Shown here piece after piece: positions 4,628-37,526 of a stretch of DNA of 42,678 bases. Numbering within the stretch: the first letter of the stretch is position 1; every line of letters starts with the position of its first letter. The position numbers and the translations under genes were made by a program. A model generated the notes under the pieces. The model was not told the DNA's origin and searched no databases. It was given only the letters and a program-made list of their open reading frames with translations. The stretch comes from a virus, in IMG/VR virus record IMGVR_UViG_3300042478_000794, positions 1 to 42,678 of that record; one strand, given 5' to 3'.

Positions 4628-6202
4628 CTATTCGCTAATTCCGCCAGCCAACTGGCTGATTGTGATGACTACGAACTCGCCTGGATACTGGAGCGCAACA
4701 CCGACCTGTACGCGCACCTCACCAGAGTCGATTACTGCCGGGGTGTTGACGGTCTCGTCGCACACCACGAAGAACGCCTCGCCAGGGCTACGGCCCTTGA
4801 GACCGCCTGCACCCCAGAAATCGGTGAGCATCGAACCAAGGCGCACGTTGATGGCGTTCCACAGGCGCTGATCGTTTGGCTCAAACACAGCGAAGCGAGT
4901 AACTTCAATCGACCGCTGCTTCACGTAGTTGAGTGAGCGACGGATGCTGATGTACTTGTCTGGCTTGCTGGTTTCCAGCGTGCGTGCACCAAGAACGACA
5001 ACGCCAGCACCTGGGATCGCCTTGAAGGCGTTAACGCCAGAGTTGTACAGGGTACCGATGTCGTTCTCGGTGAGATTCAGCACGGTACCAAGAGCGTTAC
5101 GGATGTCTGCGTTGTAGCCAGCCGGTGGCTTAGCCACAGTGCGTTCGATCTCGGTACGGACGTACAGACCAGCAACAGCACCACCAGGATATGTGTTTCG
5201 GACAGCGCCGATACCTGACTTTGATGGGTCTACCATCGTGAGCATGCCGTAGTACGGAGCGCCCCAGCCTTTGGGGCTGTATGAAGCCACAGCGTTGCTG
5301 ATGGCAACAGTTGTCGTGGAGGCTGGGTTTGGATCGATGATCACAAATGAGGTGCCACGAGTCTGGGCCTTAGTAAGCGCCAAGTTGACTGTAGTCGTAT
5401 CCGACTTACCAACCACGTTGATGAGCAGTGAGTCATTGATCGTGTCCAGCAGGTCAAGTGCACGACCGTAGGCTGCTGCGTCAGCGTCGGCATCTTGAAT
5501 ACTGCCGCCAGTGAAGAGGCCAGTGCTTGAGAACGTCAGAGCGCCAGTAGTAGCACCCACGAACGGAGCGATGTCGACCTGGCCAGAACGAACACGGACG
5601 TAGTTTGAGTACGTGTTCAGAATCGTAGGCGCATAGCGACTGGAGTTAGGATCTGGGCTGAGATCTGGCCAGAACTCCACCTCAGTACCTGTTGCCGTGT
5701 TGCCGCCTACGAGGATGCGCAGGTTGAACGTAGCGACAGTAGTCGCTGGGCTAGAGGTGGGCGTAAGGGTGCTACCAGCGGTCACCTGGCAGATAAGACC
5801 GCCACCGACTGCCGTGTTAGCAGTGTTGCCCCAGTCGCCGGGGTTACGGGCATCCAGCGTCATCAGAACGCCGGTAGCGGATGCACCTGTAGCAGGGACA
5901 CGGCTGTACGTGATGGTTGCTGATGCTGCGGTTGAGTTGCTGCCGTAGGCACGTACTACGTAGGCGTCACGACCGCCGTTAGCGAAGTACTGATACAGAG
6001 CGAACCCGAGATCGTACGAGTTGTCTAGATCACCGTACTGTGCCCGGTACTCGGGCCATGAACGGACTAGAACTGGTTCGGTTACCGTACCACGAAGACT
6101 CTTACCAATGAAGGCAGCAGCAGTTGCGCCAGAGGCGCGAGTAGTTGCACGTGCCTTGAAAGGCGCTTCTGATACGTATACGCCTGGAACTGAGAAGGGC
6201 AT
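4628..6202 (-). CDS. Contractile tail sheath protein
   Basis: A 524-aa protein starting MPFSVPGVYVSEAP. It continues with AAFIGKSLRGTVTEPVLVRSWPEYRAQYG, the classic N-terminus of phage tail sheath proteins. The C-terminal region (VLGARTLE..., SIRRSLNYVKQRSIEVTRFAVFEPND) matches the conserved sheath C-terminal domain. The start codon overlaps the preceding stop (TAATG), with GGAGG seven bases upstream inside the previous gene. The TAG stop lies within the AGGAG ribosome site of the tube gene, so sheath and tube are likely co-translated. This gene defines the phage as a myovirus. Confidence 0.95.
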   Translation of the reverse strand: MPFSVPGVYVSEAPFKARATTRASGATAAAFIGKSLRGTVTEPVLVRSWPEYRAQYGDLDNSYDLGFALYQYFANGGRDAYVVRAYGSNSTAASATITYSRVPATGASATGVLMTLDARNPGDWGNTANTAVGGGLICQVTAGSTLTPTSSPATTVATFNLRILVGGNTATGTEVEFWPDLSPDPNSSRYAPTILNTYSNYVRVRSGQVDIAPFVGATTGALTFSSTGLFTGGSIQDADADAAAYGRALDLLDTINDSLLINVVGKSDTTTVNLALTKAQTRGTSFVIIDPNPASTTTVAISNAVASYSPKGWGAPYYGMLTMVDPSKSGIGAVRNTYPGGAVAGLYVRTEIERTVAKPPAGYNADIRNALGTVLNLTENDIGTLYNSGVNAFKAIPGAGVVVLGARTLETSKPDKYISIRRSLNYVKQRSIEVTRFAVFEPNDQRLWNAINVRLGSMLTDFWGAGGLKGRSPGEAFFVVCDETVNTPAVIDSGEVRVQVGVALQYPGEFVVITISQLAGGISE

Positions 6203-7897: not shown

Positions 7898-8706
7898 TAG
7901 TAGAGATACCCATCCATAGGAGTTACGCTCCCAGTACTTGGGTAACTATCAACGTACACATCATAGCGATTATCGTCTGGGGGCGTTTCTACGTCAATCT
8001 TGCCACTGTCGATGTTCGGCCAGACACGCTCAATCGGATCAAAGTCGCCAACCTCACGGTCCTTGAATACCGGAACAAGACGATTTGTTGTACGTGAAAC
8101 CCTACGAAGGTTGAACACTTCGATGCGCTCCAGGCCAATATTGAGTGCCTTGGCCTTCTTCTCGTACTCGCCCATCCAGAACTGGAGCATGCTCTGCACC
8201 ATTCTGAATCGCTGCGAGGCAGGAATGTGGATCGACTCGGAAGTCATCACATCGATGTCTCTGCTGAACTCAGTCGTCAGTGCCCAAAGCGCTTCGACGA
8301 GCGCAGAGATTCCAATTACATCGATCACTGCTGTAGACATGGACGAGGGCGGAGTGTCCAGATTGTGCGTGTGCATGTTCAGCGCAATCTGCGCGTAGAA
8401 GTCCAGGTCTGATGGAAGAATCCAGTCGTAGTAGTAGCCCTCTACAAGCAAGGTACTCCCCTGTGGTGGGGGAGAACTAATGCGTAGGAGACCGTTCCGC
8501 TCGTCAAGTGAGTAAGCAGATGTGCTCATAGAGCAGGCACCAGTACCACCTGACGGTACATACGCAATCCACATAGATGGTGCATCAATGTTGGGATGGC
8601 CAAGTTCAAACGTCCTACCTCCCACGGTAAACGATGTTTGAAAGAACTTGGGGAAGTCACGCAAGTAGTTGCGTGCAATGGATGCAATTTCTTCAAGAGC
8701 AGACAT
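7897..8706 (-). CDS. Probable head-tail adaptor/connector protein
   Basis: A 269-aa protein starting MSALEEIASIARNYLRDFPKFFQ, with an N-terminal helix followed by a beta-rich part. A second helical block (FYAQIALNMHTHNLDTPP, then MVQSMLQFWMGEYEKKAKALNIG) is consistent with an adaptor bound under the portal. It comes after the collar-domain fibre and before the stopper candidate. Its start overlaps the fibre stop (TGATG), so fibre and connector are translationally linked. The C-terminus is rich in Asp, Pro and Tyr. Call from position; moderately sure. Confidence 0.5.
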   Translation of the reverse strand: MSALEEIASIARNYLRDFPKFFQTSFTVGGRTFELGHPNIDAPSMWIAYVPSGGTGACSMSTSAYSLDERNGLLRISSPPPQGSTLLVEGYYYDWILPSDLDFYAQIALNMHTHNLDTPPSSMSTAVIDVIGISALVEALWALTTEFSRDIDVMTSESIHIPASQRFRMVQSMLQFWMGEYEKKAKALNIGLERIEVFNLRRVSRTTNRLVPVFKDREVGDFDPIERVWPNIDSGKIDVETPPDDNRYDVYVDSYPSTGSVTPMDGYLY

Positions 8707-10208
8707 CAGTACGCCCTTACGAAGTACCTAATAGTCTTGAACGCAGGACGGTTATCAATCGTCGGAGAGACAGACCCGGTAGACGACGTGCTGTTGGTGC
8801 TAGGGGCATTTGTTGTCAACGATGCGTTATTGACAGTGACTGTGTGGGTGTGATCACCGACAGCGTTCACAGTAACTGCACCATTAGTCACTGATCCGGT
8901 GTGAGAGTGGTTATCGTTTAGGGCAACTAAACTATCTTGCTCTGCGTAGTCAAGCGGAGACCCACCTCCTCCCAACTGCATTAGTTGCAGTGCATAGTCA
9001 CTGGGAACTGTAGTGGACGTGAAGGGGAACGTACCAGTTACCTGCCACGTCAATCCTCCAGGTTGTGGGTACTGGGGAGTCGGCCTTCTAACGGACACAA
9101 ACCCATAAGAGTTATACTCAAAAGTGTTAAACCCAACGGGATGGACAGCGTGACCATGCCCATAGATATTAGTAGTGATTGCTGTACTGTTCAGAGCACC
9201 ACTATGGCCGTGCCCACCGCCTGCACCTGTCGACACCGTCCCATGACCGTGGGCTGGCAGGGTATGCACGTGGTTGCTCAGGTCATGAACGTGCGCTAGC
9301 AGCGGAATGGTGACACTGTCAGCACCACCAGACGCAGTAACGAGTCCACTTCCTCCTGTTGCAGCACCGCCACGAAGGAATTGGTTTGAGTAGTCTGGTA
9401 GCGTGATGGGCTGTGACACACCCCAGGCAGTAGCAAGACCATCGTACAGTGGGTCATTTGGTAGCGCAGTGCCATTGCACTCTTTGAACCTGGCTGGTGG
9501 CGTAGTGTTTGCTGGCCACGTAACAACCATGCCCACCGGAACAATGTCGTCAACTACAGACTGACTGGCTACCTGCAACCAGTTACCCGCTGCCCTAACG
9601 TACACAGCGTTAGTGGTAGAGGTAGGAGATGCTAGGACTACAACGTCGCCGTTAATCCCTTGTCCTGCTGATGGTACAGCAGCCTGAGTCCAGGTGATGT
9701 TGCCCGTGTACATGGTGCGCTTGTCAATCAAGTGCCCGTCAACGGTAGAACCTGCGGCGGCACGGAAGATCGCACAGATAAGAGCGTCTGTGTCAGGGTT
9801 GTAGTAGTTGTTCTTCTGGGCAGTCGTGTCCGATGAAAGAGCAGTACTCGTACTCTTAGGGAACACCGGATTAGTGGAGGACGACACACCGTCTAGTTTG
9901 ACGATGGACACGGTAGAACCGCTAAGTCTTGCTACCAGCAGGGAGAACTGTACGTTTGAAGGAACGGTGTCTGGAGCAGCGTTAACAACGCTGTACGTAC
10001 TGAAGGAGTACGGTACACCAGCGATAACGGCTACGCCCCCCGTTACGTTGATGGTTCCGCCTGACTGCGTGGTAACACCACCCGAACGGATGAAGTTCGA
10101 CCGATTGCCGAGCGCTTCAATGTCTAGAGCATCAGGCTCTGCCTGGTTGATGTTGGCAAAGCGAAGAGCAGACCCCGTGTCGGTTGCGTTCGGGATGATG
10201 TGTGCCAC
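8706..10208 (-). CDS. Fibre with tail-collar domain and seven HxH metal-site motifs
   Basis: A 500-aa protein starting at GTG 10208, with AAGGA five bases upstream. Residues 223-280 form a phage tail-collar domain (PVGMVVTWPANTTPP, then CNGTAL and LPDYSNQFLRG). After it come HVH (306), HVH (313), HGH (320), HGH (333), HGH (351), HSH (434) and HTH (453). Such histidine pairs bind metal along the axis of trimeric fibres such as T4 gp12. The C-terminus (DNRPAFKTIRYFVRAY) is also fibre-like. The gene is in the head/connector block near the spike-base gene, so it may be a head fibre rather than a tail fibre. Confidence 0.8.
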   Translation of the reverse strand: MAHIIPNATDTGSALRFANINQAEPDALDIEALGNRSNFIRSGGVTTQSGGTINVTGGVAVIAGVPYSFSTYSVVNAAPDTVPSNVQFSLLVARLSGSTVSIVKLDGVSSSTNPVFPKSTSTALSSDTTAQKNNYYNPDTDALICAIFRAAAGSTVDGHLIDKRTMYTGNITWTQAAVPSAGQGINGDVVVLASPTSTTNAVYVRAAGNWLQVASQSVVDDIVPVGMVVTWPANTTPPARFKECNGTALPNDPLYDGLATAWGVSQPITLPDYSNQFLRGGAATGGSGLVTASGGADSVTIPLLAHVHDLSNHVHTLPAHGHGTVSTGAGGGHGHSGALNSTAITTNIYGHGHAVHPVGFNTFEYNSYGFVSVRRPTPQYPQPGGLTWQVTGTFPFTSTTVPSDYALQLMQLGGGGSPLDYAEQDSLVALNDNHSHTGSVTNGAVTVNAVGDHTHTVTVNNASLTTNAPSTNSTSSTGSVSPTIDNRPAFKTIRYFVRAY

Positions 10209-10216
10209 GGTGTTCC

Positions 10217-10450
10217 TTACAGAGTGTCGTAGATGTTTCCTGCTGCTCGTAGGTACTCATAGAGTTCCACGGGCAACTGGTAACGCTTGCCGTCCTCAAA
10301 GTCGTATGACTCAAGACCCCAGTACATCGTCCACGTACCCTTTACGCGACCAGACTTGGTCGGGGTACCGACTACAACTGCTGACTCCACCTGGACTGCT
10401 TCGTCCTGATCGTCGAACTCGTCAGCAACGGGGATGTTGTTACGTGCCAT
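10217..10450 (-). CDS. Small hypothetical protein in head block
   Basis: A 77-aa protein, preceded by AGGAG eight bases before its ATG. It is acidic at the N-terminus (DEFDDQDEAVQVES). A predicted beta core follows (GRVKGTWTMYWGLESYDFEDGKRY), then a helix (LPVELYEYLRAAGNIYDTL). I do not recognise a family. It sits between the spike-base gene and the fibre. It follows a candidate promoter and a small leader hairpin, so it may be the first gene of the connector/tail transcript. It could be a small decoration or spike-adaptor protein, but nothing in the sequence proves that. Confidence 0.6.
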   Translation of the reverse strand: MARNNIPVADEFDDQDEAVQVESAVVVGTPTKSGRVKGTWTMYWGLESYDFEDGKRYQLPVELYEYLRAAGNIYDTL

Positions 10451-10478
10451 TTTATGTCTCCTGTTTAATTGGCCCTGT

Positions 10479-10496
10479 GACTACTACAAGGTAGTC
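10479..10496 (-). other. Leader hairpin
   Basis: A 6-bp stem (GACTAC / GTAGTC) with a 6-nt loop in the 126-bp gap before the 77-aa gene. It lies just downstream of the candidate promoter and could shape the 5' leader. The stem is short, so its significance is uncertain. Confidence 0.3.
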
Positions 10497-10510
10497 CACT
10501 TGTGAGATGG

Positions 10511-10538
10511 ATAGTAGTTGTGAATCGACCACGGTCAA
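10511..10538 (-). promoter_or_regulatory. Candidate sigma70-type promoter
   Basis: On the minus strand TTGACC and TACTAT are separated by 16 bp. They match the -35 and -10 consensus at 5/6 and 4/6 positions. The site lies in a gene-free gap (10451-10576), after the spike-base gene and before the 77-aa gene. It would start a transcript for fibre, connectors and tail. There is no experimental support. Confidence 0.45.
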
Positions 10539-10576
10539 CTCATGGCTGATGATCTAGACGCTTTGGCCTAGAAGCA

Positions 10577-10861
10577 CTAGAACAACGCAACGATGTTAGA
10601 TGCGCTGGTACCAGTTGCAAATACCCTCTCAGCATGGATCGGGAGGATAGCCCCAGCGGGTACTGCTGTGAAGGTTACCGACGCCCCCGCTGCATCGTCT
10701 CGCAATCTAACCCTAACGGTACCAGTACTCCCGACGTACAGGGCATTTGCGGTGAATGCAAGATCAGTTGAGTCCGATGGGGTAACGGCAAGGGCTGCAC
10801 CGGCTGGCTGGTTGGCGTCTGGACCTAATTGACCAGCAAAACGAGGGTGTTGTGAGGCCAC
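10577..10861 (-). CDS. Head spike base protein, RcGTA Rcc01079-like
   Basis: A 94-aa protein starting at GTG 10861 with AAGGAG upstream. It shows AVTPSDSTDL, ALYVGSTGTVRVRL, VTFTAVPAGAILPIHAERVFATGT and a terminal IVALF. This string of motifs is what I remember of the spike-base family named after RCAP_rcc01079. In the Rhodobacter gene transfer agent that protein anchors fibres to the capsid. It follows the major capsid gene, and a fibre gene lies two genes downstream, which fits a capsid spike. The family recognition is strong; the spike role in this phage is inferred. Confidence 0.75.
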   Translation of the reverse strand: MASQHPRFAGQLGPDANQPAGAALAVTPSDSTDLAFTANALYVGSTGTVRVRLRDDAAGASVTFTAVPAGAILPIHAERVFATGTSASNIVALF

Positions 10862-10915: not shown

Positions 10916-10948
10916 GAAGGGGCGTGGGCGAAATACCCACGCCCCTTC
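10916..10948 (-). terminator. Hairpin after major capsid gene
   Basis: A perfect 13-bp GC-rich stem with a 7-nt loop (GAAGGGGCGTGGG / CCCACGCCCCTTC). It lies 22 bases past the capsid stop. No T-tract follows, so it may terminate partially or act as an mRNA stabiliser that raises capsid output. A smaller hairpin (AGCACA / TGTGCT) follows at 10893-10907. Confidence 0.75.
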
Positions 10949-10970: not shown

Positions 10971-12047
10971 TCAGCCGCCGTAGATCGAACCGCCGAGCGT
11001 GTTGATGAGAACACGGCTCTCGTGGGTGATCATACCGAAGCCCCAGATGGCGTACCAGGCGAGGCCGTGCTCACGACCGAAGTCGATGACACCGCCGTCA
11101 CGCAGTTCCACTGGGAGGGCAATAGCGTGACCGAAGGTGTTGTCACCGATCATCACAGCGTTGTAGGTGTTGGCGTTGGTCAGCGTCGTCAGGCTGTTGT
11201 TGATGCCTGACGATGCGAGAGCACCCTGGAGAACCTGGGTGGTCTCAATGAACACCACGTCGTACAGGCGACCGATCTCACCGAGCATGAAGTTGCCGGG
11301 AGCGGCGTACTTCGTGACTTCGATGAACTCGGGCCAGTCACGGAGGGCACGTGCCTGCTTGGGGTGAACGAAGCAGACGTAGGTGTCGCCCAGACGGGGG
11401 ATGTTCTGGCTGGCCAGTACGTCGACAGCGTCCTTGACAGTTGCTGGCGAGAAGTAGCCAGCGGCTGATGCTGCCGTAGGAGCAGTGGTGTAGTCGTAGG
11501 GGCTGAGAGCACCACGGCTAGCAGGGGCGTTACGGCCGAACACGATGTTCGGGGGAACGGCTGAGCCGCCACCGAAGGGAACAGCGTTCTGGTACAGGGT
11601 GTTACGAGCCTGGATGTCCATGCTCTGAGCCATGTGGCGACCGAGCAGACGGCTGCTTGATGCCATCACGTCATCGAACGATGCGTTGAGCAGCAGTTCG
11701 GTAACGGCGACGGCCTGACCCTGTTCCTTGACGGTGATCTGGATCTGGCTAGCGGACAGAGCCACTGGCTCCATACGAACGCCTTCGTTCAGGGTTGCAC
11801 CTGCCGAAGCGTTGGTAGCAAGGTTGTTGTAGCGCATGAAGTTGATCGTGAGACCGGGCATGACACCCAGTTCAGTCTTCTTCACTGCGAACTGCTCAAA
11901 GCGCAGAACGGGCATGGCCTGGAAAAGGATTTCCTTTGACCAGATCGTCTGAATAGCAGGAGTCAGTGCGCTACTTGAGTTGTAGCCAGTGGCTGAAATG
12001 CTAGCGGTGCTAGTAAGAGCACCACCGGAAGGGGCTGGAAGGGCCAT
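10971..12047 (-). CDS. Major capsid protein, N4-gp56 family
   Basis: A 358-aa protein with GGAGG upstream of its ATG. Key segments are IQTIWSKEILFQAMPVLRFEQFAV, GLTINFMRYNNLATNASAGATLNEGV and ITVKEQGQAVAVTELLLNASFDD. Further along are LLGRHMAQSMDIQARN and FVHPKQARALRDWPEFIEV. This pattern is typical of the N4-gp56 family of HK97-fold capsid proteins. It follows the scaffold gene and ends before a very stable hairpin, consistent with heavy expression. N4-gp56 capsids occur in podoviruses, siphoviruses and myoviruses, so the family does not fix morphology; the sheath does. Confidence 0.9.
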   Translation of the reverse strand: MALPAPSGGALTSTASISATGYNSSSALTPAIQTIWSKEILFQAMPVLRFEQFAVKKTELGVMPGLTINFMRYNNLATNASAGATLNEGVRMEPVALSASQIQITVKEQGQAVAVTELLLNASFDDVMASSSRLLGRHMAQSMDIQARNTLYQNAVPFGGGSAVPPNIVFGRNAPASRGALSPYDYTTAPTAASAAGYFSPATVKDAVDVLASQNIPRLGDTYVCFVHPKQARALRDWPEFIEVTKYAAPGNFMLGEIGRLYDVVFIETTQVLQGALASSGINNSLTTLTNANTYNAVMIGDNTFGHAIALPVELRDGGVIDFGREHGLAWYAIWGFGMITHESRVLINTLGGSIYGG

Positions 12048-22956: not shown

Positions 22957-24087
22957 CTATCGTGATACTTTAACACGCTTGGAGCCGTCCTGAGTAACGA
23001 CGTAGTTAGTAGACGGGTCAGACGCCGGTACCGTAGTAGTTTGATTTTCGCCAGTCACCACAACTGTTGTGTCCCTAGACGTTACCACGGTGGTCTTCTT
23101 CTGAATACCTAGCACAACTACGTTGTTAGCGTTGTCTTGCTTAACAACGTTAACTCCACCAGCCCATACCGAGGGTCTGCCTACCGCTCCGACTGCAAAT
23201 ACTACCGCTAAACCGCTTGCTGGTACTATCTTCGACCCAAACTCACTAACACCAGATACAACTGCGGTACCTGCTGCTGGGATAAGGGGTACCTGAACAA
23301 TGGCAGTTATTTGCCTTGATACAGTGGCCGACCCGGTTGCTGCAATAGCAGAACTAGCGAACCTAGACGCACCAATAGCGCTGGCGACAGCCAAACCATT
23401 TGATGTTCCTGACGCTGCGCTTACTACGGCAAATACGCCACTTACGGTTGCAGTACCAGCGGCTGGAGTAGGGGTGGCACTGCCTAAGGTTGCCGAACTA
23501 CCGGAAACGGTTGCAGTACCAGACGCCGCTACAGGAGATGCGGCTACGACCGTCCCACCAATTGCGCCTGCCGCTGAAACGGTGGCGACACCTGCTGCTG
23601 GAGTGGTAGTAGCCGCAGCCGTAGCAGCAAAGGTAGAAGATACGGCGGCGACACCTGCTGCTGGGGTAGCAGATGTTGCTGATCGGGCAGCAGCGGTTAC
23701 TGAAACAGTCGCCGCCCCATTGGATGGACTGAGGGCCGTTGCTGAGGTGGCAGCGAACGTAGCGGTGACTGTGGCTGCACCGGCTGCTGGTATTGGGGAA
23801 GAAGACCCGGCAGTGGCTGTTGCACCGACTGCTGAAACAGTCGCGGTACCTGCTGCCGCTGTTGCTGAGGCGGCAGTCCTAGCCCCAGCCGTCGCTGAAA
23901 CGGACGCAACACCTGCTGCCGCAGTGGGAGAGGCGCTTGCGATTGAACCACCTGTTGAACCTGCCGCTGAAACGGTGGCGACACCAGCCGCTGCTACCGG
24001 GGAAGCGGCGGCAATGGTGGAGCCAGAGGTTACGGTGGGATCGGCAGACAGCCACAGAGTCGCTTCACGGAGAAGAGTAATGCTCAT
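22957..24087 (-). CDS. Alanine/threonine repeat protein, probable virion surface
   Basis: A 376-aa protein coupled by ATGA to the LamG-like gene upstream. Residues 29-300 hold about 13 imperfect repeats of roughly 20 residues built on a core like SPxAAGxATVSA. The pattern suggests a repetitive beta structure such as a fibre shaft or solenoid. The N-terminus (TLLREATLWLSADPTV) resembles an internal segment (TALLSGATFWLDAASS) of the upstream LamG-like protein. The C-terminal 65 residues are different and Thr/Val-rich (KKTTVVTSRDTTVVVTGENQTTTV), a possible attachment domain. It is probably part of an adhesion apparatus. Confidence 0.65.
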   Translation of the reverse strand: MSITLLREATLWLSADPTVTSGSTIAAASPVAAAGVATVSAAGSTGGSIASASPTAAAGVASVSATAGARTAASATAAAGTATVSAVGATATAGSSSPIPAAGAATVTATFAATSATALSPSNGAATVSVTAAARSATSATPAAGVAAVSSTFAATAAATTTPAAGVATVSAAGAIGGTVVAASPVAASGTATVSGSSATLGSATPTPAAGTATVSGVFAVVSAASGTSNGLAVASAIGASRFASSAIAATGSATVSRQITAIVQVPLIPAAGTAVVSGVSEFGSKIVPASGLAVVFAVGAVGRPSVWAGGVNVVKQDNANNVVVLGIQKKTTVVTSRDTTVVVTGENQTTTVPASDPSTNYVVTQDGSKRVKVSR

Positions 24088-26897
24088 CCGGTTACTCCGT
24101 AGTAAGAGGCGATGCTAAGCAACTCTGCATCAGAGAGACGACGCCGGAATGCAACGACGGCAAAACACTCAAAGTCATTGCCCTGACCGGCTGACTGATT
24201 GGTTCCAATACGGAACGGTGCTGAGTTTGCTAGTGATCCAGTCACCGTCGATGTGCTGCCGGTGTTCAAGTCTAATGTCCCATTCAGGATGCGTCCGACA
24301 TCTACTTGGGATGTGCTGCTCCGCCTCCTCGCAAACAACACATCCAGCACTCCCGCCCGTCGATTGTTCAACTGAAAGTAAGTAACTGACGTAGTGCCAT
24401 CGCTGAACTCCAACGCTCCGCCAAACCCAACCGGAACGCCAGCAGCACGCAACAGGTAGCCGCCAACTCCCGCTGGTCCGGTCTTGTCGATGAAGCGTTG
24501 CCCCGAATAAGGTGTAGCCCACACACGATTCACGACCAACAGCGTCCAATCGTCTGAGTTGTCGAAGTCCAGCAAGGCGTTATCAGCCACTTGCAAGAGG
24601 TCGTCGGTGCCGAACAACCAGACAGGTCTGGTGACGGCGACCGTCTTTCGGCCAGATGTAGAACGATTGATCGAAACAACAGGCTTTGGCGACGAGGCCG
24701 CATCTAGCCAGAAGGTCGCCCCACTAAGCAGAGCCGTCGATGTTGGAGTAACAGTTCCCTGGTAGTGGTCGTTGATTGTGGAGATTTCACCAGCGCTCAA
24801 GGCACGGCGGAATACAGCAACGGCGTAACACTCAAAGTCTTGCGACCCTCCACCACCGCCAGCACCGCCAACCCGCACAGGTAGAGAGTTGGCGAGCGAA
24901 CCTAGGCCGACTGTCGATTGCGTACCGGAAGAGGTGGTGCCCTTGTACACCCGAGACTGGTTGACGCCACGGTCAACTACTCCGCTCACTACAACGAACT
25001 CTCCAGCGGTGAATGCTGGAGCGCCCGCATATACCTGCGTGGTCCCGTCGCCAATGTCAAAGGCCACCTGCAACGCCGTGGCGTTGGGGACAAGGTTCCA
25101 ACCAACTTGACCAGCGCCAGAAACCTTCTTGTCGATCCATCGACCGAAGTTGGTCGGCGTTGCCCATTGACGCACCACCGCCAAGACAGTGAAAGATTGT
25201 GACGCACTGAAGTCAAGCAGATCGTTGTCAGGAACTTCCATATGGTCGTCAGTGCCGAACAGCCACACTGGACGCACCACGGCAACAGACTTGCGCCCAG
25301 AGGTGGGACGATTGATCGTGACGGTCGCAGCGTTGGAAGACGACTCAGTAAACGTCGTCTGTCCACCGCTGGTGATGCCTGTAGTGAAGTTGGCGTCGAA
25401 CGCCGTCGATCCATCCACTCTCACTTGCGAGCGGTACACCCTGCCCGACAAATTGTTGATACCAGACTGTGATCCGATAACCAAAGGTGTGACCGCGTTG
25501 AAGAGCGCCGTCGAAGGAACGCTTACCGTCGCGATCGTTGTCCCTAGTTGAGTCCAGCCTGTGTCCACCGCCAAATCGGCTGCTGCCGCACTCTCGGTCG
25601 TGGCTTTCTGGAAGAATTTGATCTCGGCAGGAGAAGATGTCCACGTAGCCCGTAACAGCGTGACTGCGCCCGCAACCATCGTGGGGGCAATGGTCGGGGA
25701 GGTTTGGATCGTAATGTTTACCCCATCGACGGACAGATACAGCGTCAGAGTGTTCGTAGTCCACATCAATAACCACGACCGGTTGTTGGCACTGACGGTG
25801 TAGTGCCCGACTAAAGCCTGTGTTCCAGAGATGCTGTCCAGCGCCACAGCAATCCGAGCGTCCAATGATGTGGAAGGTGTGTACGCAGCCAGATCGGGTG
25901 CTGTTGCGTCGTTGAAACTCAACCCCGGTAAGTACAGATAGTTCGTGCCGGTGTGTGTCAACAGTCGCGGATCGTTCGTAGTCGGCTGAGTGGGATTGCC
26001 ACCCAAAGAGGCATTCAGCACCGAGCCTCCGGTGCCGAGGTTCGACATAACCCGAACGGACTCAAGAGCAGTTGAGGCGGTTCCGGTGTACGGAACCGTT
26101 AGTGCATCACCACTGGTGATACCTGTGGTGAAGTCAACGTCGAACACGGTGGTACCGCCGACGCCGTTACGGACGATGGAGCGGTAGACCTTTCCGGCCA
26201 GCAGAGTAGCGGTGCCGTCATTGCTGCTACCAACTTGCAATGGTGCCGTGCCGTTGAACAGGGTGGTTGCTCCTACGGCTGCTGGCGTTCCTGCCGAAGT
26301 CCATGTGGTTGGCTCGTTCGGTTGGTCGGCGGCATAAAAGAATGCAGCAGTTCCGGTCGATGCCTGCCACGTGAGCCTGAACCAGTAGGCCACGCCATTG
26401 ACCAACGGCATTGTGTTGCTCTCAAAGTAGGGAAAGTTTGCCCCAGTGGTCGAATAGTAGAATCGAACATTGGCGAATGCAGACTCGTGGCGCACCATGT
26501 ACTGACGTTGGTTCGTCCCGTCGTTCCACTTGCCGACAACCGTCTGGGAAGTTCCTCCAGTCCATGCGTCGCTTGAAACTCGCCACACGATCTCCAGGTC
26601 GCCGGTCAACTTGATGGGCGCAGCGTCAGGCACTGACGCGTAGTTGCCGCTTACGCCTGGTAGGTACAGATAGTTCGTACCGGTGTGCGTCAGCAGCAGC
26701 GGATCGTTTGCGTCAACACCAATCGTTGAGCCGTATTGCCCATCAAGAGCGAACCCACCAGCACCAAGGTTCTCAGCGACATCGTTTTCTAGTCGTCGCT
26801 TGAAATCACTCTCTACAGTGCGAAGGCTCCAATCCTCCAAATTGCGTGCAAAAGGGTCTTGCGGTGTACTGCTGGAGAGCAGAAGCAGGAGGCTCAT
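24084..26897 (-). CDS. Large adhesin with four LamG/concanavalin-like domains
   Basis: A 937-aa protein with GGAG nine bases before ATG. Four beta-sandwich units are visible, in two related pairs. Units A (about 60-265) and B (about 305-515) share LLTHTGTNYLYLPG and a closing FTTGITSG. Units C (about 535-715) and D (about 740-937) share RPVWLFGTDD, a WATP turn, SLANS and a closing DFECxAVxxFRRxLS. Such LamG/concanavalin A-like folds bind sugars, so this is a likely receptor-binding or fibre protein. It begins MSLLLLLSSSTPQDP, which is hydrophobic but too short for a convincing signal peptide. It lies in a run of fibre genes. Confidence 0.75.
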   Translation of the reverse strand: MSLLLLLSSSTPQDPFARNLEDWSLRTVESDFKRRLENDVAENLGAGGFALDGQYGSTIGVDANDPLLLTHTGTNYLYLPGVSGNYASVPDAAPIKLTGDLEIVWRVSSDAWTGGTSQTVVGKWNDGTNQRQYMVRHESAFANVRFYYSTTGANFPYFESNTMPLVNGVAYWFRLTWQASTGTAAFFYAADQPNEPTTWTSAGTPAAVGATTLFNGTAPLQVGSSNDGTATLLAGKVYRSIVRNGVGGTTVFDVDFTTGITSGDALTVPYTGTASTALESVRVMSNLGTGGSVLNASLGGNPTQPTTNDPRLLTHTGTNYLYLPGLSFNDATAPDLAAYTPSTSLDARIAVALDSISGTQALVGHYTVSANNRSWLLMWTTNTLTLYLSVDGVNITIQTSPTIAPTMVAGAVTLLRATWTSSPAEIKFFQKATTESAAAADLAVDTGWTQLGTTIATVSVPSTALFNAVTPLVIGSQSGINNLSGRVYRSQVRVDGSTAFDANFTTGITSGGQTTFTESSSNAATVTINRPTSGRKSVAVVRPVWLFGTDDHMEVPDNDLLDFSASQSFTVLAVVRQWATPTNFGRWIDKKVSGAGQVGWNLVPNATALQVAFDIGDGTTQVYAGAPAFTAGEFVVVSGVVDRGVNQSRVYKGTTSSGTQSTVGLGSLANSLPVRVGGAGGGGGSQDFECYAVAVFRRALSAGEISTINDHYQGTVTPTSTALLSGATFWLDAASSPKPVVSINRSTSGRKTVAVTRPVWLFGTDDLLQVADNALLDFDNSDDWTLLVVNRVWATPYSGQRFIDKTGPAGVGGYLLRAAGVPVGFGGALEFSDGTTSVTYFQLNNRRAGVLDVLFARRRSSTSQVDVGRILNGTLDLNTGSTSTVTGSLANSAPFRIGTNQSAGQGNDFECFAVVAFRRRLSDAELLSIASYYGVTG

Positions 26898-28336: not shown

Positions 28337-29776
28337 TCAGATCACCATGCAGCGAAGCATCACTGTAGATGTGTTCAGCACCATGTAGACGTAGTCGATC
28401 TCGGTGGCACCGTCGGTGTAGTGCACATCGAACGCCGTGTCGCCGAGCACCGCAGCACCCTGGGTGTAGGTCATCGTCGTCCACCCGTTCTGCTCGCTGG
28501 TGACGAAGTTGTGCTGGAACCAGCGACCGGTGGCTTCTTTCTGAATGTAGAGAGAATCGTCCCTGTAGACGTACTTGGAGCCGGTCGTGAAGGTCTCCGT
28601 CGCCGGAGCGTACGTCAGAGCGTTGTTCCAGGTGTTCGCAGCAATGTCATAGCGGTCAACCACCGCCGAAGCGGCACCACGGAAGGAGTAGATGTACCGA
28701 CCGTTCAGGATGGCCGACTCGTTATTCCAAGCGGCGTCGGGCGCTTCCCAGACCCAGTGCCCCGACAAGCCAGCACCGGGGGCAGCGCCTCGGGCAACAC
28801 CTGGCGTGATCGTCGTCCAGGTGCCCGCCGTGATGCTGTAGCGGAACAGCGTGACAGCGTTGCTGCCCATGTAGTAGATGAAGTCATCATTGCCTTCGAT
28901 GCTGTAGACGCTCGTCGCATCTGGCGTCGTCGTCCACGTCGCCACGGTCACAGAGGTGGCGTCATTGGCCGTGATGGTGCGGATCTGACCGGCTCCAGTG
29001 CCAGACACGATGCGGATCTGGGAGTTGATCCACTGGCTGGGGGTCCACGTCTTTGCCGAGTTCACCAGCGTCGTAGCCGTGGCGCTCGTCGCCGTACCAG
29101 TAGCGAACGACTTGTAACCGGAGCCTTGCCATGACGGGGTGCAGATCAACTTGCTGTCGGTGCCGATCACTGCGGCCGGGGCGATGCCGTCCGTCGCACC
29201 GGTCTCGGCCGAGGCCCAGGTGTTGGTGGCGAAATCGTAAAACTTGAACAGGTTCGCCGTAGTGGTGCCCGACGCCGTTACGGCGTTGAGCACGTACCAG
29301 CGGGGCGTAAGCAGTCGGAACGTGGTCGACGCAGTGAACGCCGACGCCTGGGTCGGCACCGTGACGACGCCGTTCGCGCCGACTGTGTTGCTGCTGATCG
29401 CCAGTGTCGCGCCAGCGTTCGGTCCGCCAGTGATGTGGATGGAGTACCCACGCAGGTCACGTGCCAGGGTGAGGTTCGTGTTGATCGTTGAGGTTGTTCC
29501 GCCCGTGGCGGTACCGGATGGGCCAATCGCCGTAGCAGTGCCGCACGCACCAGCGCCAAACGTGCCCGCCAGCGCTCCCGAGGGAATCTGCGTCCAGCCA
29601 TCTTCAAGAGGGTTGTAGAGGTACTGCGCCGTTGCACTCGCCACATACAACTGCTGCTGTCGGTGGTGGCGAGACGACGCAATGAATGCACCCGCCGAGG
29701 TTGCGAGGGGTGCGGGCGTGCAGAACTCCCACCGCTTTAAATCGAGAATCTTGCGGTTGCCGTTGGTAGTAGGCAT
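28337..29776 (-). CDS. Kelch/beta-propeller-like virion protein
   Basis: A 479-aa protein whose ATG overlaps the preceding stop (TGATG). It contains several blade-like units: QLYVASATAQYLYNPLEDGWTQI, TANLFKFYDFATNTWASAE, NAVTLFRYSITAGTWTTI and SAVVDRYDIAANTWNNAL. The repeated Y-D-x-x-x-N-T-W pattern is the kelch signature. Between them are inserted strands (GTGAGQIRTITANDATSV) common in phage fibres. It would be a surface protein, perhaps carbohydrate-binding. Gene order within the fibre block supports a virion role. Confidence 0.7.
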   Translation of the reverse strand: MPTTNGNRKILDLKRWEFCTPAPLATSAGAFIASSRHHRQQQLYVASATAQYLYNPLEDGWTQIPSGALAGTFGAGACGTATAIGPSGTATGGTTSTINTNLTLARDLRGYSIHITGGPNAGATLAISSNTVGANGVVTVPTQASAFTASTTFRLLTPRWYVLNAVTASGTTTANLFKFYDFATNTWASAETGATDGIAPAAVIGTDSKLICTPSWQGSGYKSFATGTATSATATTLVNSAKTWTPSQWINSQIRIVSGTGAGQIRTITANDATSVTVATWTTTPDATSVYSIEGNDDFIYYMGSNAVTLFRYSITAGTWTTITPGVARGAAPGAGLSGHWVWEAPDAAWNNESAILNGRYIYSFRGAASAVVDRYDIAANTWNNALTYAPATETFTTGSKYVYRDDSLYIQKEATGRWFQHNFVTSEQNGWTTMTYTQGAAVLGDTAFDVHYTDGATEIDYVYMVLNTSTVMLRCMVI

Positions 29777-30216
29777 CAGGTCACGCTCACGTTTCTGCGG
29801 AGGGAGTCGGCACCGAGGCGCATCAGGGCGGGGATCTGCTCAAAGGCCGGGTTGCCACCGACCTGCGTCTGGTTCGTCATCGTGCTGACCGTCGTCACCG
29901 TGCCGACCGTCGTGATCGTCGCCAACGTCAGAGAGCCAGTGATGGCATCCACCACGACACGGAGACGGCCAGCCACATCAGGCATCGACTGACCAATGGA
30001 ACGGCTGAGTGACTGCACTGCCATTCGCATGGCTTCCAGCGCCTCCACGACTTCGCCCTGCGTGAGCGTGACCGGGTACGGGTTGTTGAGCGACACGTCG
30101 CCGTCGTTGACTCCATCACTGCCGTGGATCAACTTGATGCGCTGGTAATTCACGCCACCAATGTCATCGGTAGCGATCACATCACCAGTTGCCGGGAGAG
30201 TGCTGTTGTCAGACAT
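29776..30216 (-). CDS. Conserved phage structural protein
   Basis: A 146-aa protein; its ATG overlaps the previous stop. It contains TGDVIATDDIGGVNYQRIKLIHGSDGVNDGDVS, which I recognise as a recurrent N-terminal module of phage tail/fibre proteins. Later come ITTVGTVTTVSTMTNQTQVGG and a helical end. It is probably a minor virion component associated with fibres. No enzymatic residues are seen. Confidence 0.6.
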   Translation of the reverse strand: MSDNSTLPATGDVIATDDIGGVNYQRIKLIHGSDGVNDGDVSLNNPYPVTLTQGEVVEALEAMRMAVQSLSRSIGQSMPDVAGRLRVVVDAITGSLTLATITTVGTVTTVSTMTNQTQVGGNPAFEQIPALMRLGADSLRRNVSVT

Positions 30217-30653
30217 CAGTCCTCAGTAACAATCGTGCCAGAAAGGATGCGAGGGGTTACACCCGAGGTTACTGAAATGGACGGTGAGAGAGCGCCCTTG
30301 TAGAGCACCTTGCCCGTACCAGTCGAAGCAGTACCGATAGCGAAGTGGGTGATCGTGTTGGTGCCAGCGGTACAGGCACCGAAGTCCGTATTCGCAACGA
30401 GAGTGACTGCGTTTGCGGACACGGTGAACCCGCCTGTAGTGCGAGCAACGGCTACACGGGCGTACCCCGTGTACGTCGCCTCACTGGTGGTCTGATCGCC
30501 TGCTTCACCGGGGTCGGCGGTGTGCAGTGACAGAAACAAAGACCCCACTGTTGTTGACCCGCGCAGACCGGTTGCATCGCCAATGTTGGCCGCATTGGTG
30601 TTGTTGAACACTAAGAGCAGTAGGTCGTTTTCCCAGGTATTGCCTTTGGACAT
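30216..30653 (-). CDS. Conserved phage structural protein
   Basis: A 145-aa protein, AGGAG six bases before ATG. It shows SLFLSLHTADPGEAGDQTTSEATYTGYARVAVART and FAIGTASTGTGKVLYKGALSPSISV. This combination is widespread in phage tail regions as a small beta-rich protein. The function is unknown, but virion association is likely. It precedes the previous entry in the same transcript. Confidence 0.65.
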   Translation of the reverse strand: MSKGNTWENDLLLLVFNNTNAANIGDATGLRGSTTVGSLFLSLHTADPGEAGDQTTSEATYTGYARVAVARTTGGFTVSANAVTLVANTDFGACTAGTNTITHFAIGTASTGTGKVLYKGALSPSISVTSGVTPRILSGTIVTED

Positions 30654-34929: not shown

Positions 34930-35483
34930 CACTCACACACCCATATTTGTGTCTTAATGCCGCTCATATCCATAGTAGTGACTATAAGCGGACGCCACCC
35001 CGAGGATTGAAGGATCTCTCTCATCCCCTCAACATCCCAGCCCCAGTAATGCTCATGCTTGCTGGAGTCTATCTCTCCATCAGGAGTTGACAAGATTAGT
35101 TTCTTTGACCTAGCCCTAATCTCTTCTAAAAGACGAACAGGCTCAGACACGTGCTCAATGGTCTCAGAGAGGATGAATAGATCAACTAATGGTGACCCAA
35201 CGTTCTTAATTGCGTCTTCAATCTTCCCGTGGTAGTGGTACCCATCACGGTAAGAGTAATCACCTAGTACAGGTGAATCGCTGAAAGCGTACGCAATGTC
35301 TGGTCTGGCACCTGCCGAAAGGTCAACTACCACACCCTCGTTCTTGCGGAAGAACTGAAGGCCCAAGGAAATGGTCAAATTGACTCTATGTACGTGATAG
35401 TCCCAGTTCGTGTAATCGTTGGGCCTAGCGTAGATTTCTTGGAGTTCTGACTCTGAGTAGTCGGGTCTTAGTCTGATAATCAT
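34929..35483 (-). CDS. SAM-dependent methyltransferase-like protein
   Basis: A 184-aa protein. A Rossmann start appears at VVVDLSAGARPDIAYAF, where the usual GxGxG is degenerate to SAGARPD. LFILSETIEHVSEPVRLLEEI is the motif-IV region, followed by KKLILSTPDGE and a WGWDVEGMREIL helix. The weak motif I may mean changed cofactor binding or an unusual family. It overlaps its neighbours by one base at each end, so it is part of a tightly coupled operon. Confidence 0.7.
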   Translation of the reverse strand: MIIRLRPDYSESELQEIYARPNDYTNWDYHVHRVNLTISLGLQFFRKNEGVVVDLSAGARPDIAYAFSDSPVLGDYSYRDGYHYHGKIEDAIKNVGSPLVDLFILSETIEHVSEPVRLLEEIRARSKKLILSTPDGEIDSSKHEHYWGWDVEGMREILQSSGWRPLIVTTMDMSGIKTQIWVCE

Positions 35484-36184
35484 CAGTAAGACCGTACTCT
35501 CTGCACATCATTTGAGAGTTGATACGCCACATACTCTTTGTATGTGTTTTCGTCCATAATCCAGGTATCGCTTGAGTTAACCTCATTGTACCCATGATCC
35601 CACTCCACCTTGCCAGCGGAGGGATGAACGTGTTCGATGATTACGTCGCTAAGGTACGTCAAAGTACCAAGGCCACGGCCAATGTCCATCCAGAAGTTGT
35701 CGAAGAATAGGTGTACGCCGCCTGGGAACACCATGTATCCAAGAGCCTTAATAATGGCAGAGTCCATGAACACAGCAGTCGCTAGTGCTTGTCCCTGCAA
35801 CAGGTCGTTTCCGTAAACTACTGCATTGGGAGTGTTAGCGCACGCTTTCGCTACCTCCACATCCCATCCTTCAGTACGTGGACGATGATCGTCGCCCATA
35901 AAGCCGACAATGTCGTACCTATTAGCCATCTCTGGGCCGAACTTGTTCAGCGTTCCACCAAGACGAAGGCGTTCTGTCGTAAGAAGAGCACCCACGAGTG
36001 ATCCTCTGTGAAGATCCCACTCCCAGTGGTACTGCTCATATGTGTCATCGTCGTCATCAATGATGATGAGCAGTTCAGTGCCCTCGTTTTTACGAGTATG
36101 GAAACTCTCAATCAAAGGGCCAACGTTGCCGGGACGGCCTCTTGATGGAACTAGAACTCCTAGTGTAGGAAGTGTTTGATGCAT
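35483..36184 (-). CDS. Glycosyltransferase family 2-like protein
   Basis: A 233-aa protein with GGAGGG nine bases upstream of ATG. The N-terminus LGVLVPSRGRPGNVGPLIESF and LLIIIDDDDDTYE are GT-A features. IVGFMGDDHRPRTEGWD carries a DDH metal site, and DNFWMDIGRGLGTLTYLSDVIIEHVHP resembles the acceptor region. The acidic run IDDDDDTYE is unusual but still in a plausible loop. It overlaps the end of the epimerase gene, so it is co-translated with sugar-nucleotide synthesis. Confidence 0.75.
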   Translation of the reverse strand: MHQTLPTLGVLVPSRGRPGNVGPLIESFHTRKNEGTELLIIIDDDDDTYEQYHWEWDLHRGSLVGALLTTERLRLGGTLNKFGPEMANRYDIVGFMGDDHRPRTEGWDVEVAKACANTPNAVVYGNDLLQGQALATAVFMDSAIIKALGYMVFPGGVHLFFDNFWMDIGRGLGTLTYLSDVIIEHVHPSAGKVEWDHGYNEVNSSDTWIMDENTYKEYVAYQLSNDVQRVRSY

Positions 36185-37068
36185 CGCCTAATGCCCTCCT
36201 CAAGGGTAACTCTTGGCGTATAGAAAGAGTTAAGGCGATCAGGGCACCCAACGCGGTGCATGACGCCCTTTGGTGCGTCAAGCAGATGATGAAGGGGAGC
36301 AGAGTAACCGGCCTCTTTCATCATCATACTTGCTAACTCGTTGAAGGAAGTTCCTACTCCGGTAGAGATATTGACCGCTAAGCCAGCAACATCCTGCTGG
36401 TGCATTGTCAGAACTGCATCAACGATGTCGTCAATATGCACCCAGTCACGAACCTGAGTGCCATCACCCCAGATGGCAAACGGTGACTCTTTAACTGCTG
36501 CCCGCCAGGCAAACGAAGGGAACGGGTAGCACATGTCCTGTGTTTCTCCGTATCCACTGAAAGGTCGAAGAACCAACACCTTTAGCCCAAGGTTGCTGTA
36601 CTCCCTGGCCATCATTTCACCGGTCAACTTAACCCATCCATATGTGAAGTCTGGGTTGCGCACAGCGTCTAGATCGATGTGATCCTCTCTCAGAGAGATG
36701 TTGTATTCACTTCGCTGAAAAGCAATGGGGTAGGCGGCGGATGAGGAGAAGAACACAGTGTACTTCGGCTTAGTGCGCTCGGCCCATCGCCACATCTCAG
36801 CGTCGATGCTGAGATCCTCTGCTGCTAGCAAGAACGGACTGTTCTCAATCATCGTTCTTCCGCCTACTACAGCGGCGCAGTGGATCACTAGATCAAACTG
36901 CGTGTTGTTTGCCCTAAAGTACTCACGGCAATCCTGCGTGTTCAGGAACTCCTTTAGGACTACTCCGTCTTTTACGTCTAGACACAGCAGGTCGTTTGTT
37001 CCGTCGTCTAACTTCTTACGGAAGTGACTTCCAACGAACCCACTACTTCCCGTGATCAGTACCTTCAT
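36160..37068 (-). CDS. NAD-dependent sugar epimerase/dehydratase
   Basis: A 302-aa protein read from ATG 37068 (AAGGTG five bases upstream). The longer frame to 37128 adds a Cys/Arg-rich tail without a ribosome site. Features of an extended short-chain dehydrogenase are MKVLITGSSGFVGSHF (NAD site), VFFSSSAAYP, the YGWVK catalytic Tyr-x-x-x-Lys, and GDGTQVRDWVHIDDIVDA. It should interconvert a nucleotide-linked sugar for the glycosyltransferases downstream. GDP- or dTDP-sugar is likely, but the sugar cannot be fixed. Confidence 0.88.
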   Translation of the reverse strand: MKVLITGSSGFVGSHFRKKLDDGTNDLLCLDVKDGVVLKEFLNTQDCREYFRANNTQFDLVIHCAAVVGGRTMIENSPFLLAAEDLSIDAEMWRWAERTKPKYTVFFSSSAAYPIAFQRSEYNISLREDHIDLDAVRNPDFTYGWVKLTGEMMAREYSNLGLKVLVLRPFSGYGETQDMCYPFPSFAWRAAVKESPFAIWGDGTQVRDWVHIDDIVDAVLTMHQQDVAGLAVNISTGVGTSFNELASMMMKEAGYSAPLHHLLDAPKGVMHRVGCPDRLNSFYTPRVTLEEGIRRCIKHFLH

Positions 37069-37124
37069 GTGTTCACCTTGTTCGACGGCAGAGTTGAAGC
37101 GCTTGGCTCTACACCAGCAAATTA

Positions 37125-37526
37125 TCACACGGCAAGACGGTCTGCACAGAGCGCAGGCGTTCTCTCCTTAGAGAGTCCTTCAGAGGTTGACCACACAACA
37201 GTGTGCACGCCCGTGTCAAGGATAATCTGCTGGCACTTTTGACAAGGCTTTGCCATGCCTAGATCGCCATCTCTCTTGATGCGCGCAACGTACAGAGTCG
37301 CTCCGTCTGGATCTCCTGCCCGACGAATAGCGGCCTCTTCAGCGTGATAGGAGACCCCGTCCAGTTCCACCAGAGATGGGTCATTCCTGTAGCGATTAAA
37401 CCCCGACGACAGGACGCTTCCTCCTCTGACGAGCACTGCGCCAACACGCCATTGTGCGTGTGGTGCCTGCTCAGCCTGAAGAATGGCAAGGCGAAGCCAA
37501 CGAATATCCGAACCCTTGATCTGCAT
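37125..37526 (-). CDS. Cytidine/dCMP-type deaminase
   Basis: A 133-aa protein. The zinc motif of the cytidine deaminase fold is present as HAEEAA (61-66) and PCQKC (94-98). The N-terminal helix WLRLAILQAEQAPHAQWRVGAVLV and SSGFNRYRNDPS are also typical of the family. It could supply dUMP for phage DNA synthesis or act on free cytidine or a tRNA. Lack of an allosteric zinc domain makes classical dCMP deaminase less certain. No good ribosome site is seen, and it begins eight bases after the 101-aa gene, so it is probably coupled. Confidence 0.8.
   Translation of the reverse strand: MQIKGSDIRWLRLAILQAEQAPHAQWRVGAVLVRGGSVLSSGFNRYRNDPSLVELDGVSYHAEEAAIRRAGDPDGATLYVARIKRDGDLGMAKPCQKCQQIILDTGVHTVVWSTSEGLSKERTPALCADRLAV

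Follow-up and report, generated by a model that had tools for sequence, protein, structure and literature searches.

Directly after the major capsid gene of the virus record IMGVR_UViG_3300042478_000794 lies a small gene whose product resembles the base of a gene-transfer-agent head spike, and the second gene downstream of it encodes a fibre. This raises the question of whether the locus specifies a matched head spike or brings together two proteins that are unrelated in function. The stretch analysed, referred to here as the window, is the 42.7-kb record in full (42,678 nt). Given that the records of several relatives reach 92-97 kb, it is probably a partial genome, less than half of the whole. 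The presence of genes for a tail sheath (4628..6202, minus strand; phrog_23, E 1e-43) and a tail tube (E 5e-25) identifies the virus as a myovirus. The major capsid gene (10971..12047, minus strand; phrog_1357, E 5.3e-63) has on its 3' side a G+C-rich hairpin followed by TTCT (10919..10945, minus strand), a feature of putative role recognised by reading the sequence and by comparison with relatives. Between the capsid gene and a set of connector-like genes lie, all on the minus strand, the genes for the 94-aa spike-base homologue (10577..10861, GTG start), a 77-aa protein (10217..10450) and the 500-aa fibre (8706..10208, GTG start). Elsewhere in the window, at 35483-37128, are genes for a glycosyltransferase-like protein (phrog_14945, E 1.7e-56) and a nucleotide-sugar epimerase (phrog_540, E 3.5e-48), the products of which may modify virion or host sugars.

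The 94-aa protein is genuinely homologous to Rcc01079, the head-spike base of the gene transfer agent RcGTA. It matches phrog_12296 (E 2.8e-24), and a sequence search of the PDB returned only Rcc01079 itself (6tb9; E 1.2e-10, residues 17-89) and the Spike Base Protein of Carin1 (8cjz; E 0.0055). The AlphaFold2 model, built from a family alignment of 17 sequences (A1) with a conserved VTFTAVPAG core, has a pLDDT of 80 and adopts the small jellyroll fold of the Rcc01079 family, and the same two structures are the only PDB entries that match this fold at E<=0.001 (3.9e-6 for 6tb9 and 8.4e-5 for 8cjz). Given that this spike-base homologue is encoded beside the capsid gene of a myovirus, it is reasonable to predict that the protein forms the foot of a spike at the capsid vertices, a location derived from homology to two capsids of solved structure. 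In RcGTA the base is present as pentamers on eleven capsid vertices, with its N-terminus docked on the capsid protein, and residues 2-10 of the fibre Rcc01080 (IALGLGLGL) sit in five hydrophobic pockets of the base pentamer (PMC7296036); the spike fibre in turn binds the capsule (PMC10218006).

Comparison with other base loci indicates what a partner of such a base usually looks like. Spike bases of the gene-transfer-agent type are shown to be widespread among phages, T4-like phages included, and among IMG/VR relatives the gene that immediately follows the base frequently starts with a peptide of alternating hydrophobic and small residues, such as MQIGIGLGIPA, MTLGFGFGLPR, MALALALSLAAV or MGLALTLGLGL. 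Across 35 less redundant base loci this plug motif was found in 15 of about 30 readable next genes, as against 36 of 365 background ORFs (p about 1e-7, for a pattern chosen after inspection of the data), and in other phages roughly one base in two is followed by a gene with no clear motif. A similar start occurs in the gene after the base at two loci of Devosia genomes and in one Verrucomicrobia MAG. In T4-like phages a base gene and a fibre gene are flanked by those for the T4-type portal (phrog_213) and the head maturation protease (phrog_207), so that placement of such a pair in the head module has precedent. These T4-like pairs, in which the base is followed by a fibre starting MKIG... (L020:3491-7930, L025:448-3769, L016, L024, L028 and L030), are likely head spikes of T4-type myoviruses. 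A further spike base, between terminase and portal genes and with no adjoining fibre (L029:3960-7977), is another orphan, this time in a packaging block. In the window, the hydrophobic/glycine plug motif is absent from the N-termini of both the 77-aa and the 500-aa proteins, and a search of all 42.7 kb gave no convincing LGLGL-type motif and no suitable ORF; a partner fibre with an N-terminal (iso)leucine/glycine peptide was thus found neither in the usual next gene nor elsewhere in the window.

The 500-aa protein is a modular fibre of what is here called the IPNA family. Its N-terminal part (aa 1-215; 9564..10208, minus strand) consists of a putative docking peptide of the form IPNxxD...DQxEPDxxDF and a beta-sandwich shoulder, and is followed by a phage tail collar domain (aa 226-277; 9378..9533, minus strand) and by an HxH-rich C-terminal tip (aa 278-500; 8709..9377, minus strand). 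The match to the Collar family (PF07484) is below the Pfam cut-off of 24 at 20.1 bits (E 6.4e-4), but is firm in G001, a close relative (E 2.5e-13), and similarity to T4 gp12 extends over aa 181-290 (E 8.9e-6). Seven HxH motifs were counted in the protein (HVH twice, HGH three times, HSH and HTH). An alignment of 33 family members (A2) shows that the common part is the N-terminal region of roughly 200 aa, in which P6, N7, Q22, E24, P25, D26 and D29 are invariant. These residues fall in a segment of low confidence in the monomer model, which has a pLDDT of 77-95 for aa 31-190 and is of low confidence beyond about aa 280, as would be expected of a docking peptide. The tip, by comparison, is variable: HxH counts range from 0 to 7 among relatives, some of which consist of the N-terminal part alone (204-215 aa) while others bear different tips, with the Collar domain in 12 members and a chaperone-of-endosialidase domain in 4. 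In some viruses (L062-L137, second gene after the capsid gene) the N-terminal domain of about 200 aa stands alone, and some of these lone genes are followed by unrelated genes, which might encode the tip separately. No homologue of the fibre or of its G001 relative was found among phage records, and a profile search of the PDB with the fibre family gave no match.

The relationship between base and fibre was examined in 80 loci with a close capsid protein, of which the 72 that extend for 1.2 kb or more beyond the capsid gene were counted. A homologue of the 77-aa protein, which has a conserved RVKGTWxMxWG...YDTL part and for which no Pfam or PHROG family was found, occurs in 65 of the 72, and in 64 the capsid gene is followed by both the 77-aa gene and the N-terminal domain of the 500-aa fibre. 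The spike base is rare in this virus family: it follows the capsid gene at a single locus of the 72, that of the window's own virus, so that 63 of the 64 loci with 77-aa and fibre genes have no base there, and among 51 such records searched over their full length, several of them 92-97 kb long, the sole occurrence was in a further contig of that virus. The base reappears in a second lineage, G001, with 77% protein identity to that of the window, but there it lies about 12 kb upstream, in the fibre module, and G001 keeps genes for a 79-aa protein and a 463-aa fibre after its capsid gene. The two base genes share 82% DNA identity, which ends at the limits of the coding sequence. Given that the 77-aa and fibre genes form a core without the base, and that the G001 base lies about 12 kb away, the simplest account is that the base is a mobile accessory gene that moves alone and has entered a core block made up of the capsid, 77-aa and fibre genes. 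Hairpins resembling that at 10919..10945 are found between the capsid and 77-aa genes of relatives with no base there (the comparison covered L060, L066, L085, L092, L063 and G001), and the base gene would therefore have been inserted after the hairpin.

It could still be argued that base and fibre together make up a GTA-like head spike on the capsid vertices, the 500-aa protein having been recruited to the 94-aa one by a new contact, given that the base is firmly identified, that the two genes are adjacent in one virus lineage and that T4-like phages have a base and a fibre together in the head module. However, this is highly improbable for several reasons: first, base and fibre do not occur together as in an RcGTA-type unit, since the core of the family comprises the 77-aa and fibre genes but no base. 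Second, the docking peptide (IPNATD...NQAEPDALD) is common to base-less viruses, in which the fibre must therefore dock elsewhere. Third, the fibre has no anchor motif and its fold is closest to that of a tail fibre, the nearest solved structure being a fibre anchored to a baseplate. In summary, the elements recognised by the sequence-only reading are all present, namely a myovirus, a protein of the Rcc01079 family and, two genes downstream of it within the head/connector block, a fibre with a collar and seven HxH motifs; its proposal of a GTA-like capsid spike locus holds for the base homologue by the capsid gene and is not supported for the matched pair of spike and fibre.

The same reading had placed the fibre on the head by the position of its gene, which is weak evidence. 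In all relatives this gene is grouped with those for head and connector proteins, a position that would suit a neck or head fibre as well. In a sister group a different fibre occupies the post-capsid site, and other relatives encode homologues of it (48% identity over 469 aa, E 2e-124) within their tail-fibre module; presence at this site is therefore no proof of a head fibre. The best Foldseek match of the 500-aa protein, for a model that is of low confidence beyond about aa 280, is the long tail fibre of cyanophage A-1(L) (8kec, gp34; E 1.2e-6), followed by weaker matches to baseplate proteins of phi812, p2 and SPP1. In A-1(L), gp34 is anchored to the baseplate wedge through its shoulder (PMC10966104), and its sequence, read from the genome, has a VFRVFVKV-like end, as does the 500-aa fibre. 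Comparison of the shoulders by hhalign (fibre-family columns 34-148 with gp34 residues 52-148) gave an E value of 0.12, which is not significant, and the resemblance is therefore best regarded as one of architecture and fold rather than as proven homology of the N-terminal domains. A search for relatives of the N-terminal domain in A-1(L), in BRock and in the fibre modules of 15 relatives gave a best E value of 0.044, to the frame of the A-1(L) short tail fibre gp33. Given that both the fold and the domain order match those of the baseplate-anchored gp34, a tail location of the 500-aa fibre is more likely than a head location.

A position between the two is conceivable, in which the 500-aa protein would be a neck fibre on the connector or adaptor protein, after the model of A-1(L) gp82 or T4 fibritin, and the base would occupy the vertices independently. 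The conserved position of the gene by the connector genes suits such an arrangement, and A-1(L) provides a precedent for fibres anchored to the neck in phages of this kind (PMC10966104). However, the fold matches the tail fibre of A-1(L) and not its neck fibre, and collar, HxH and S74 tips are typical of tail receptor-binding fibres, so that this is a possibility, if a rather unlikely one. The 237-aa protein of the window did not match the A-1(L) terminator gp8.

A different partner for the base was also considered. Reading of the sequence gave one weak candidate, a 937-aa protein of the fibre module (24084..26897, minus strand) with the N-terminus MSLLLLLSSS, the leucine run of which would plug the base pentamer. 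Both base-carrying lineages have an MSLLLL fibre, of 937 aa in the window and 711 aa in G001, where the gene (starting MSLLLLF) adjoins that of the base, 65 bp upstream, and examination of the fibre regions of 14 relatives that lack a base revealed no such fibre. However, none of the 16 MSLLLLF loci obtained by a DNA pattern scan of the collection has a base in the stretch of flanking DNA examined, and those MSLLLLF genes belong to a gp80-type fibre module. Leucine-run fibres of this kind were thus rejected as general partners of the base, the link between the two is probably coincidental, and it is quite unlikely that the 937-aa protein is the true partner. Proteins with an MSLLLLF start followed by low-complexity or repeat sequence form a widespread class of the phage fibre module (L158-L173; window 24084-26897; L006:3251-5386), in which the leucine run may itself serve as a docking plug. 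The window also encodes a homologue of the podophage GP4 fibre gp80 (30216-30653; PF23140, E 3.9e-16) and, after it, a 'DDIGG' protein (29776-30216), and a pair of gp80-like and 'DDIGG'-like genes also precedes MSLLLLF genes in several other loci.

Taken together, the preferred reading, to which a probability of roughly 0.6 is given, is that of an orphan, horizontally acquired capsid-vertex spike base beside an unrelated modular fibre that is probably a tail fibre. The 94-aa gene would have been acquired horizontally and inserted between the capsid and 77-aa genes of a contractile-tailed phage. By homology, its product would form a small jellyroll, attach by its N-terminus, as pentamers, to the vertices of the capsid and present hydrophobic pockets to the N-terminal peptide of a fibre. 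That fibre may be encoded elsewhere in the genome, possibly outside the partial record, or the base may act alone; a partner could still exist, given that the window probably covers less than half of the genome. The 500-aa gene would encode the receptor-binding fibre of this phage family, a modular protein passed on by vertical inheritance, fixed to the virion by its docking peptide and beta-sandwich and equipped with an exchangeable tip, which is a collar with HxH motifs here and a chaperone-of-endosialidase domain, another tip or none in relatives. Homology, gene order, co-occurrence and the lack of an anchor motif are observed in this account, and sites on the virion, oligomeric states and binding to receptors are inferred from them. 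A more speculative and unlikely extension is that the base is a mobile vertex socket, gained as a single gene and loaded with non-cognate fibres encoded elsewhere, possibly the 937-aa protein, which would provide a contractile phage with a second, head-borne attachment device. These results correct an attractive but unsupported pairing of base and fibre and indicate that gene position alone can mislead; furthermore, the wide spread of such bases among phages, the plug that often starts the next gene and the ability of a base gene to move on its own open head-borne attachment in contractile phages to testing.

Among known systems, the 94-aa protein is closest to the RcGTA spike base Rcc01079 (GhsA, 6tb9), which it resembles in sequence, predicted fold and small size; it differs from it in context, given that the gene lies in a contractile-tailed phage, immediately behind the capsid gene, with no Rcc01080-like fibre bearing an N-terminal IALGLGLGL peptide after it. 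The Spike Base Protein of Carin1 (8cjz), a component of the mature capsid of a podovirus, has the same fold (TM 0.70-0.75) and a weak sequence match, with 30% identity in the fold alignment. For the 500-aa fibre, the short tail fibre gp12 of T4 (1pdi, 1ocy) is similar only in the collar part, aa 181-290, whereas A-1(L) gp34 (8kec) has the same order throughout, of N-terminal shoulder, collar, HxH-rich tip and final hydrophobic strand, with the difference that the gp34 gene lies among the baseplate wedge genes and that of the 500-aa fibre by the capsid gene.
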